This document shows positions 11,318 to 14,416 of a stretch of DNA of 64,000 nucleotides, piece after piece. The position numbers and the translations under genes are program-made. The DNA is taken from the NCBI GenBank assembly GCA_944363785.1, contig CALVVF010000005.1:1-64000 (forward strand). The letters are read 5' to 3'. The notes beneath the pieces are model-generated. The model ran no database searches, had not been told where the DNA came from, and was given only the letters and a program-made list of their open reading frames with translations. Within the stretch, counting starts at the first letter, position 1; each line of letters opens with the position of its first letter. This DNA comes from an uncultured Bacilli bacterium. GTDB taxonomy: Bacteria > Bacillota_I > Bacilli_A > RF39 > UBA660.

Positions 11318-13630
11318 ATGACAGATACAGTAGAAGAAGTAAAAGAACTGATGGTAGTTAAACGAAACGGAAAAAAGGTAGAGTTTGACGGCTCAAAGAT
11401 CGCATTAGCGATAAAAAAAGGTTTCGATAGTATCGTTAGTTCTGATCAAGAAGAAAAAGGCGAAAGAAAATACAGTGAAAAAGATATTCAAAAAGTATAT
11501 CAATCAGTACTTAATCGTATTGATAAAGAATATCATGAAGCTGGAAAAATTAAAATAGAAGAAATTCAAGATATGATTGAAGAAGAATTAGAGAAAAAAG
11601 GCTATGGAGATGTCTATCGTTCTTTCTCTGAATATCGTGATCGTAGAAATCAGTCACGTCTAAATTTTGCTGATGATAAAAAGATGCATAAGTTCTTAAA
11701 ATCATTAGAAAATTTAGGATTAAAATCAGCTAATGAAGAAGATGCTAAACGTGAAAATGCCAATATCGATGGTAATAGTCCAATGGGAACGATGCTTCAA
11801 TATGGAGCGACCGTATCAAAAGAATTTGCTAAAGCTTATTTGATGAAGTCAAAATATGCAGACGCACATGATAGTGGTGAAATTCACATTCATGATATGG
11901 ATTTCTTTGCAATGGGTACGACAACATGTTGTCAAATCGATCTAGGTCGTTTATTTAAAAATGGCTTTGATACTGGGCATGGATATATTCGCCCACCACA
12001 AGATATTAGTACATATGGTTCTTTAGCTGCGATTGCGATTCAAGCGAATCAAAATGATCAACATGGTGGTCAATCAGTGCCAGCCTTTGATTATTATATG
12101 GCTCCAGGTGTATTAAAGACATTCAAAAGACAATTTAAACAAGCTATCTATGATGGACTTGATTTAGAAGGTTTTCTTCCTTTTATTAATATGGATAGGA
12201 TAGCTAGAGAAATTGACAAGTTAGAGTCTATTGAATTTGCCCGTGATTTATTTTATCCATTTGCTAAGGGCTCAAGAGAAATTGAAAAGATTCTCGATAT
12301 GTGTTATGACAAGGCATTACAGAAGACGAATCGTGCTACGCAACAAGCGATGGAAGCTTTTATTCATAACTTAAATACGATGCATTCTCGAGCTGGTGCA
12401 CAGGTTCCATTCTCATCAGTAAATTTAGGAACGGATACTTCTCCAGAAGGTAGAATGGTAATTAGAAATTTCTTAGAGGCAACTGATGCTGGATTAGGTC
12501 ATGGTGAAACACCAATTTTCCCTGTATCTATCTTTAAGATAAAAGAAGGAGTTAATTATAATCCAGAGGATCCTAACTATGATCTATTTAAATTAGCTTG
12601 TAAAGTATCGGCTAAGAGATTGTTCCCTAACTTTTCTTTTGTAGATGCTCCATTCAATCTACAATTTTATAAACCAGGTGATGTAAATACAGAAATTGCT
12701 TATATGGGATGTAGAACGAGAGTAATTTCTGATGTGACAGATCCTAATCATCAAGTAGTAACCGGTAGAGGAAACTTATCATGGACGACAATTAATTTAC
12801 CACGTTTAGGAATTAAACATGGAATTTGTTTAAAAGAGCGTGATAAAGCAGATATGAAAGGTTTCTATCAAGAGTTAGAAGAATTGATGGATATGGTTAA
12901 AGATCAGTTACTAGAACGTTTTGAGATTCAATGTAATAAGCATAACTACAATTTCCCTTTCCTTTTAGGACAAGGAGTTTGGAATGATGGAGAAAAGTTA
13001 AAACCTAGTGACCGTCTTCGTAAGGTATGGAAACATGGTAGTTTATCGATTGGATTCATCGGTTTGGCCGAATGCTTAAAAGCATTGATTGGTAAACATC
13101 AAGGAGAAAGTGATGAAGCTCAAAAATTAGGATTAGAAATTGTCGGCTTTATGCGAAAAAAATGTGATGAATATGCAGAAAAATACAATTTAAACTTTGC
13201 TTGCTTAGCTACTCCAGCTGAAGGTTTATCTGGTCGATTCACTAATATCGATAAAGCAATTTACGGAAAAATAAAAGGGGTAACGGATCGTGAATATTAT
13301 ACGAATTCGTTCCATGTACCAGTTTATTACAACACGAGTATCACTCATAAAATAAAAACAGAAGCTCCATATCATGATTTGACGAATGGTGGTCATATTT
13401 CTTATATCGAGTTAGACGGAGATGCAGCTCAAAATGTTGAAGCTTTTGAAAAAATCATTCGTTTGATGAAAGAATCAGGAATTGGTTATGGTGCTGTTAA
13501 CCATCCAGTTGACCGTGATCCAGTTTGTGGATATATTGGTGTCATTGGTGATGTTTGCCCAGGTTGTGGTAGACGTGAGTTTGAAAGTATTCCAATCGAG
13601 CGCTTACATGGCAGTGATTGTGAATGCTAG
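11318..13630 (+). CDS. nrdD: Class III ribonucleotide reductase large chain lacking its glycyl-radical tail
   Basis: 770 residues. N-terminal ATP-cone (VVKRNGKKVEFDG, about 13-100), then the ten-stranded barrel with TTTCCQIDL (thiyl-radical cysteine region), QNDQHGGQSVPAFD and YMGCRTRV (second active-site cysteine). The C-terminal zinc module is present (PVCGYIGVIGDVCPGCGRRE) but the protein ends 16 residues later in HGSDCEC. Ordinary NrdD continues here with the RRVxGYL glycyl-radical segment. That segment is encoded by a separate gene 47 bases downstream (13678-13851). The enzyme makes dNTPs from NTPs anaerobically. SD AGGAGTGGAG precedes ATG 11318. Confidence 0.93.
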   Translation: MTDTVEEVKELMVVKRNGKKVEFDGSKIALAIKKGFDSIVSSDQEEKGERKYSEKDIQKVYQSVLNRIDKEYHEAGKIKIEEIQDMIEEELEKKGYGDVYRSFSEYRDRRNQSRLNFADDKKMHKFLKSLENLGLKSANEEDAKRENANIDGNSPMGTMLQYGATVSKEFAKAYLMKSKYADAHDSGEIHIHDMDFFAMGTTTCCQIDLGRLFKNGFDTGHGYIRPPQDISTYGSLAAIAIQANQNDQHGGQSVPAFDYYMAPGVLKTFKRQFKQAIYDGLDLEGFLPFINMDRIAREIDKLESIEFARDLFYPFAKGSREIEKILDMCYDKALQKTNRATQQAMEAFIHNLNTMHSRAGAQVPFSSVNLGTDTSPEGRMVIRNFLEATDAGLGHGETPIFPVSIFKIKEGVNYNPEDPNYDLFKLACKVSAKRLFPNFSFVDAPFNLQFYKPGDVNTEIAYMGCRTRVISDVTDPNHQVVTGRGNLSWTTINLPRLGIKHGICLKERDKADMKGFYQELEELMDMVKDQLLERFEIQCNKHNYNFPFLLGQGVWNDGEKLKPSDRLRKVWKHGSLSIGFIGLAECLKALIGKHQGESDEAQKLGLEIVGFMRKKCDEYAEKYNLNFACLATPAEGLSGRFTNIDKAIYGKIKGVTDREYYTNSFHVPVYYNTSITHKIKTEAPYHDLTNGGHISYIELDGDAAQNVEAFEKIIRLMKESGIGYGAVNHPVDRDPVCGYIGVIGDVCPGCGRREFESIPIERLHGSDCEC

Positions 13631-13677
13631 ATGAATAAAAATTAAGAGAATAGAAAGTAATAAAGGAGGAAAAAATA

Positions 13678-13851
13678 ATGGAAAGAACAGTAGGAGAAGG
13701 AGTAAAATTTGAAAGGATTAGAAGAGTAACCGGATATCTTGCCGGAGATGTAAGTCGTTTTAATAACGGTAAGAGAGCTGAAGAAAGAGACCGTGTAAAA
13801 CATAGTGGTTTAAAAGAATTAATGAACCAAAAGACAGCGAAAGATGAGTAA
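13678..13851 (+). CDS. Stand-alone glycyl-radical peptide of NrdD (split subunit)
   Basis: 57 codons, too short for usual gene callers. It contains FERIRRVTGYLAG, RFNNGKRAEE and DRVKH, the complete C-terminal glycyl-radical domain of class III ribonucleotide reductase. Gly19 in RVTGYL is the predicted radical site. A very strong SD (AAAGGAGGA, 13662-13670) lies seven bases before ATG 13678. Its frame differs from nrdD and has a TAG at 13651-13653, so it is not a readthrough or single-frameshift product. It overlaps nrdG by eight bases. Inference: the peptide docks onto the large chain, like the spare-part protein GrcA/YfiD on pyruvate formate-lyase, and is activated by NrdG. Confidence 0.9.
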   Translation: MERTVGEGVKFERIRRVTGYLAGDVSRFNNGKRAEERDRVKHSGLKELMNQKTAKDE

Positions 13852-14416
13852 ACAGATGAAAATCAGATTAGCGGCTAGTGTACAAGCAGATAGTATTGTG
13901 GATGGTGAGGGAATTAGAACAGTGATTTGGACTCAAGGTTGCCCTCATCATTGCCCTGGATGTCATAATCCTGGAACTCATGATTTTTCAGGAGGAAGGG
14001 ATTTTGATGTTGAAGAGGTCATTGCCGAACTTGAACTTTTGGAAAATCAGGATGGATTAACATTCTCTGGCGGTGATCCTTTTGTTCAGCCAGGTGCTTG
14101 TGCAGCTATTAGTCAATATGCCAAATCGAGGAATTGGAATATATGGTGCTATACAGGCTATCTTTTCGAAGATTTATTAAAACTGTCACATACTAATCGT
14201 GATATCACCAACTTCCTAAACCATATCGATGTATTAGTTGATGGAAAATTTATTCTAGCAAAAAGAAGCCTAAGCACCGCCTATCGTGGAAGTACTAATC
14301 AAAGAATTATAGATGTACAAAAGAGTTTAGCCACTCACCAAGTGGTTACTATCGATAAGTATGATCAAAAAGTAGAAATGAATCAAAAAGCTAAACCAGC
14401 AGGGTTGTATATTTAG
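13844..14416 (+). CDS. nrdG: Anaerobic ribonucleotide reductase activase (radical SAM)
   Basis: 190 residues. Radical SAM signature CPHHCPGC (CxxxCxxC, about 30-37) in the context TQGCPHHCPGCHNPGTHDF is diagnostic of NrdG. GGDPF and the later strands complete a short TIM-like barrel. It reductively cleaves S-adenosylmethionine to place the glycyl radical, here presumably on the separate 57-residue peptide. The ATG lies inside the end of that small gene (eight-base overlap), indicating translational coupling and tight stoichiometry. Terminator follows at once. Confidence 0.95.
   Translation: MSKQMKIRLAASVQADSIVDGEGIRTVIWTQGCPHHCPGCHNPGTHDFSGGRDFDVEEVIAELELLENQDGLTFSGGDPFVQPGACAAISQYAKSRNWNIWCYTGYLFEDLLKLSHTNRDITNFLNHIDVLVDGKFILAKRSLSTAYRGSTNQRIIDVQKSLATHQVVTIDKYDQKVEMNQKAKPAGLYI

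Follow-up and report, generated by a model that had tools for sequence, protein, structure and literature searches.

A predicted two-chain class III ribonucleotide reductase with a separately encoded glycyl-radical domain in Bacilli and phages

The window, the whole 64,000-nucleotide stretch of an uncultured Bacilli bacterium analysed here (contig CALVVF010000005.1), contains a class III ribonucleotide reductase locus in which nrdD, a small gene for a glycyl-radical domain and the activase gene nrdG follow one another (Table 1). In the usual NrdD architecture the radical domain forms the C-terminal part of the one chain, although the chemistry does not demand it; this architecture is absent here, since nrdD stops at 13630. 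The nrdD product covers positions 1-534 of the 562 in PF13597 (634 bits, above the Pfam cut-off) and includes an ATP-cone (PF03477, 56.5 bits, above the cut-off); the nearest solved structure is the P. copri NrdD (8p23). The small ORF matches positions 532-562 of the same 562-position model (30.8 bits, above the curated cut-off), and the entire radical loop and tail, FERIRRVTGYLAGDVSRFNNGKRAEERDRVKH, lies inside it. The R-V-x-G-Y-L and R-V-K-H motifs of class III NrdD are therefore present, on a separate chain of 57 residues. The two genes are separated by a gap of 47 nt and differ in frame by +2. No dedicated model of the small gene alone was found in NCBIfam, Pfam or PHROGs. The nrdG product matched TIGR02491 with 146.5 bits (cut-off 126.1). 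It had been predicted from the letters alone that nrdD ends 16 residues past CPGCGRRE without a radical motif, which is borne out by the sequence and the PF13597 match; the coordinates also agree with the predicted 57-codon radical gene, with its own Shine-Dalgarno sequence, in another frame, behind a TAG and overlapping nrdG by 8 bases.

Table 1. Features of the split nrdD locus in the window, and the longer solo radical proteins of other chromosomes
Feature	Position	Strand	Description
nrdD large chain	11318..13630	+	770 aa, TAG stop; ATP-cone, barrel, zinc module and short C-terminal tail; without glycyl-radical domain
Met463-Gly464-Cys465	12704..12712	+	Expected thiyl-radical cysteine, from sequence; M-G-C-R invariant in alignments
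Zinc module CPGCGRRE	13556..13579	+	Near the nrdD C-terminus
C-terminal tail FESIPIERLHGSDCEC	13580..13627	+	Specific to the split large chain; exactly the 16 residues that follow CPGCGRRE
TAG in the small-gene frame	13651..13653	+	Upstream of the small-gene start, from sequence
Shine-Dalgarno AAAGGAGGA of the small gene	13662..13670	+	From sequence
Separate glycyl-radical-domain gene	13678..13851	+	57 codons, 57 aa; begins MERTVGEGVKFERIRRVTGYLAGDVSRFNNGKRAEERDRVKH
Gly19 codon (RRVTGYL)	13732..13734	+	Predicted radical glycine; invariant in 77/77; role inferred from NrdD
nrdG, radical-SAM activase	13844..14416	+	190 aa; 8-base overlap with the small gene
~95-aa chromosomal proteins	L163 269-556; L164 3714-4007; L165 2062-2361; L166 3642-3926; L118 2486-2773		Conserved N-terminal domain of unknown fold and NrdD radical domain

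Cys465 of the large chain is presumably the thiyl-radical cysteine, as assigned through general knowledge of class III enzymes, and the Met two residues ahead of it (Met463) gives what we take to be the pattern of the formate-type class III enzymes. Gly19 of the small chain is the counterpart of Gly711 in the P. copri NrdD. The zinc module has three cysteines (DRDPVCGY...CPGC), and an Asp is aligned at the position of the first Cys of the P. copri enzyme.

Relatives were collected by scanning 84,980 species genomes with the small protein, and the best 80 of at least 493 were compared. A separate radical gene follows nrdD in 77 of these 80, all loci from independent genomes; the remaining three lie on contigs with too little upstream sequence. 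A simple motif search recognised nrdG behind the radical gene in 63 of the 77 loci. The original prediction had proposed a search for a conserved split, and these 77 loci have the same order and junction, independently of the frame. All 77 small genes share an invariant radical motif (R-x-T-G-Y-L, F-N, K-R, E-E, R, K-H). The large chains all carry a tail motif E-F/S-E/D-x-V/I-P or similar, and the tail ends in a CxC or CC pair in 74 of the 77 loci. The split phage enzymes do not contain this terminal Cys pair, which therefore cannot be a general requirement. A class I-like redox tail was considered for the pair and rejected, in view of the Met-x-Cys pattern of the formate-type class III enzymes and the missing pair in the split phages.

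The 77 loci were picked by similarity of the small gene, and therefore give no share of split genomes. A separate survey of the window's family, sampled at roughly one genome for each genus, yielded 109 genomes with any match. Counted from the match rows, without individual inspection of the loci, 42 large chains end at profile position 530-538; the same row count gave 8 further large chains where the search ran through in-frame stops, and one partial chain. Fused NrdD relatives within this family were found in G018, G032, G105 and G246.

The small gene is, judged from codon substitutions, under strongly purifying selection. The median pairwise dN/dS of its 32-codon core is 0.08, and its codons differ between the window and the nearest relative by 10 synonymous and 0 non-synonymous changes. 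The window genome is a draft of 36 contigs with 94.7% completeness, in which PF13597 matches only nrdD and the small gene and no second NrdD was found. The class I/II reductase model PF02867 gave no match in this genome or in the 19 other family genomes searched. The split enzyme should consequently be the sole ribonucleotide reductase and must work in trans; nearly all the bacterial genomes are drafts, so that a missed second reductase is not fully excludable. Gene content thus suggests that dNTP synthesis in the window bacterium should rest on the split enzyme, with a small doubt left by the draft.

The window comes from a single contig of a draft assembly, but an assembly or sequencing error or a decaying pseudogene, with a true nrdD that is continuous, can be considered refuted already by the relatives, since 77 independent contigs have the same junction with start codons and Shine-Dalgarno sequences of their own, the dN/dS of the small gene is low, and the gene belongs to the only ribonucleotide reductase found. 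Two observations that would have overturned the original prediction were also looked for: the relatives that belong to the split clade show no continuous nrdD frame, and the window genome yielded no second nrdD.

The two parts could also be fused by recoding, through readthrough, programmed frameshifting or splicing, to give a whole NrdD. In favour of this, some relatives have both parts in the same frame with a single stop between them; however, the relative frames 0, 1 and 2 are about equally common (30, 24 and 23 of the 77 loci; chi-square p 0.57), and the gap holds 2-4 in-frame stops in several of the relatives with both parts in frame. The gaps of 10-59 nt across the 77 loci are below the size of known self-splicing introns, and the small gene has a conserved start and its own SD-like sequence (76 of 77 loci). 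The gaps, the ribosome-binding sequences, the mixed frames and the several stops in in-frame cases together show that the two parts are translated separately, and recoding is very improbable.

The position of the radical domain was examined in a read-through model of L071, a same-genus relative with both parts in one frame, in which the stops were read as Gln, so that nature itself supplies the two parts as a tethered pair. AlphaFold did not place the tail with an alignment of 55 mostly close sequences containing few fused homologues. With diverse fused viral NrdDs in the alignment, the mean pLDDT was 87 and that of the radical domain about 77-85, whereas the linker was disordered. In VIA-align, residues 119-836 of this model superposed on residues 87-735 of the P. 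copri NrdD (8p2s) with an rmsd of 2.0 A over 634/651 residues and a Z-score of 47.9. The radical domain of the P. copri enzyme comprises residues 676-739 and includes Gly711 (PMC11226230), so the small domain occupies the canonical pocket in the L071 model. The fused homologues in the alignment partly build the docking in, and the model therefore indicates compatibility, not binding. As an intramolecular prediction without binding data, it suggests only that the tail of the split enzyme may fit the usual NrdD position.

It is highly probable that nrdD, the radical-domain gene and nrdG encode a two-chain class III ribonucleotide reductase, with docking, radical formation and catalysis inferred. 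The large chain would provide the ATP-cone, the zinc module and a catalytic barrel that bears the thiyl Cys465. Its partner, the small chain of 57 residues with Gly19, would dock non-covalently in the barrel, at the site of the fused tail, and NrdG would install the glycyl radical on it. The radical might then move to Cys465 for nucleotide reduction, and catalysis would proceed as in the formate-type NrdD, as inferred from the motif with Met463 and Cys465. The original prediction of a reductase with its radical peptide in trans is strongly supported by the 77 loci, the purifying selection, the lack of another reductase and the read-through model. Comparison of the genomes establishes, as far as sequences can, the split, its conservation, the independent translation of the parts, the selection on the small gene and the absence of another reductase from the draft genome. 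Docking of the small chain is inferred from the model only, and radical formation and catalysis are also inferences; the two-chain enzyme is without biochemical or proteomic data.

A tree built from the large chains places the split rows of the window's family together in one old group, with fused genera branching at its base; one fused row (G018) is nested among the split rows with weak support. A wider quick tree has up to 8 state changes, at least 4 of which are forced by well-supported branches, and from this wider tree it appears that the split arose several times at the one junction. In Subdoligranulum variabile (Clostridia; OY725842.1, L243), nrdD ends CPRCGRREGEAVSPERIKELRKLYPGTFTYCGCE; then come a gap of 70 nt that includes GGAGG, a radical gene of 53 codons and nrdG. 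The same junction occurs in phages: the radical gene comes first and then nrdD in phage contig L220, nrdD comes first in L227/L326, L265, L267 and L276, and the two parts are 1-2 kb apart in L270-L275. By gene content, the split nrdD occurs in many phages and throughout a large group of gut bacteria. Phage L228 (4800-5100) and L229-L233 contain an nrdD that lacks the radical domain, together with nrdG, and then, behind an ORF that may encode a homing endonuclease, a truncated radical-domain frame; this arrangement is likely an intron interrupting the small gene. In genome G057 of another family, an nrdD without the radical domain (L119 1587-3833) adjoins nrdG, and the only solo radical gene, of about 95 aa, is unlinked and more than 1 Mb away from nrdD. 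This genome also has a second NrdD elsewhere, fused and of a different subtype, and its sisters G172 and G203 have a fused nrdD and a solo radical gene of about 95 aa. The nrdD of G057 is inferred to have lost its radical domain independently.

Radical domains of the NrdD type also occur alone. All of the 25 IMG/VR contigs found with the small protein encode a free radical-domain ORF, and no large chain was found in these 25 records, which may be fragments. A second viral scan revealed about 40 more free forms (a few of them exon or contig-end fragments) and a few fused ones. The viral free forms are either short (~50 aa) or long, the latter having ~92 aa and an additional N-terminal domain whose fold is unknown; this long type also occurs as a solo form in 5 of 97 broadly sampled NrdD-positive genomes. 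The large phage contigs L217 and L214 have the radical domain behind a different, longer N-terminal region, with 162-198 aa in total. Extra solo domains in G015:C3 (L112 3195-3368), whose genome also has a chromosomal split pair, and in G025:C6 (L113 3144-3299) adjoin genes for the terminase small subunit and RusA, which indicates prophage regions. In phages L223 (4475-5159) and L224 (262-970), a solo radical domain comes immediately behind nrdG, and these 48-49 kb records contain no nrdD large chain at any position. The chromosomal proteins of about 95 aa (Table 1) occur with a fused nrdD (G144, G172, G203 and G145) or with the domain-less nrdD (G057), and are candidate spare parts.

Two accounts of why the chains are separate survive. 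The split might be neutral: a fission that became entrenched without bringing any benefit in replacement or repair, the chains staying together for life. In the window's family the split has one old origin, as expected of a single fission that is rarely or never undone, and among class II enzymes the split NrdJa/NrdJb has no tie to oxygen repair (PMC4520616). However, several splits seem to have arisen at this one junction, and solo domains are found repeatedly in phages, with no large chain beside them, and in bacteria with an intact nrdD, which suggests the use of a detachable part. Neutrality is a serious possibility that falls somewhat short of even. Alternatively, the two chains might be selected for repair or control: an oxygen-cut subunit could be exchanged, or the amount of the small chain could set the active fraction. 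The repair of oxygen-cut pyruvate formate-lyase by GrcA/YfiD is an analogy for this (PMC8683613), and G015, with a split pair and an extra prophage-borne radical domain, and the spare radical proteins in genomes with a fused nrdD point in the same direction; but there are no exchange, stoichiometry or oxygen-response data, and in the window genome the radical domain is encoded as a normal part of the operon and not as an additional copy. Selection for repair or control is given nearly an even chance. A neutral origin and a cheap replacement of the oxygen-cleaved part, for which there are no test data, remain about equally open.

In a two-chain reductase with its radical on a separate chain, a fresh radical subunit could hypothetically take the place of one that is damaged or cut by oxygen. 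More tentatively, and with the odds slightly against it, the NrdD-type radical domains might be a mobile, interchangeable subunit of bacteria and phages. Bacteria with the split enzyme would renew it by resynthesis; phages without nrdD would bring the subunit, sometimes with nrdG (L223 and L224), to restart or take over the anaerobic reductase of the host. As the split enzyme is apparently the sole one, it should be essential in a large bacterial group, which would depend on a separate radical chain. It also offers a natural system in which docking, the installation of a radical in trans and subunit exchange following oxygen damage could be measured, and an approach to the question of why lone radical domains exist in phages.

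No description of a class III reductase with a separate radical chain was found in the literature searched, which left out subscription papers and ribonucleotide reductase databases; the original prediction had likewise named no described family with a split NrdD. The class III NrdD/NrdG systems of E. coli, P. copri and T4 share with the window locus the ATP-cone, the barrel, the MGCR thiyl motif, the zinc module, RVxGYL...RVKH and an nrdG in the operon; whereas the radical tail of the window is a separate gene product, and the large chain has a new C-terminal tail, with a Cys pair usual in split large chains. Glycyl radical enzymes have as a rule been taken to carry the radical on their own chain. 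The validated exception, as a repair part only, is GrcA/YfiD of E. coli and Y06I of phage T4, autonomous glycyl radical cofactors of pyruvate formate-lyase, and those who studied GrcA/YfiD have speculated on further spare parts (PMC8683613). These are, like the small chain of the window, small proteins that supply a glycyl radical domain in trans and also occur in phages. The predicted likeness to GrcA/YfiD is thus fair for the way of working, but it does not extend to the family, since GrcA/YfiD belongs to PF01228 and the small gene matches only PF13597 in Pfam. Nor does it extend to the role of a spare: GrcA replaces the damaged domain of pyruvate formate-lyase, whereas the small chain would be an obligate subunit of a domain-less large chain. 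Coexistence with a domain-bearing parent enzyme, a trait of GrcA, is absent from the window genome, whose only NrdD lacks the domain, but is seen with other solo domains, for example those of G144, G172, G203 and G145. The window genome has one glycyl radical enzyme of the pyruvate formate-lyase type (PF01228, 759-aa frame, G000:C10:15557-15880, L246), and no free-standing GrcA-type match was found in it.

NrdJa/NrdJb of Pseudomonas aeruginosa, a split class II reductase, has been described as the one case of a split reductase among non-viral organisms (PMC4520616). It resembles the window enzyme in its two co-operonic chains, both of which are needed; however, it belongs to class II, and its small chain performs thiol exchange, not radical storage. 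Phage nrdD and nrdA genes can be broken by introns, inteins or homing endonucleases, and the split NrdA of phage Aeh1 works (PMC3653736). Those interruptions are mostly scars of mobile elements at various sites; whereas the window type has one recurrent junction, between the zinc module and the radical loop, and a conserved small gene. The split enzyme counts as a class III ribonucleotide reductase of variant, not standard, architecture.
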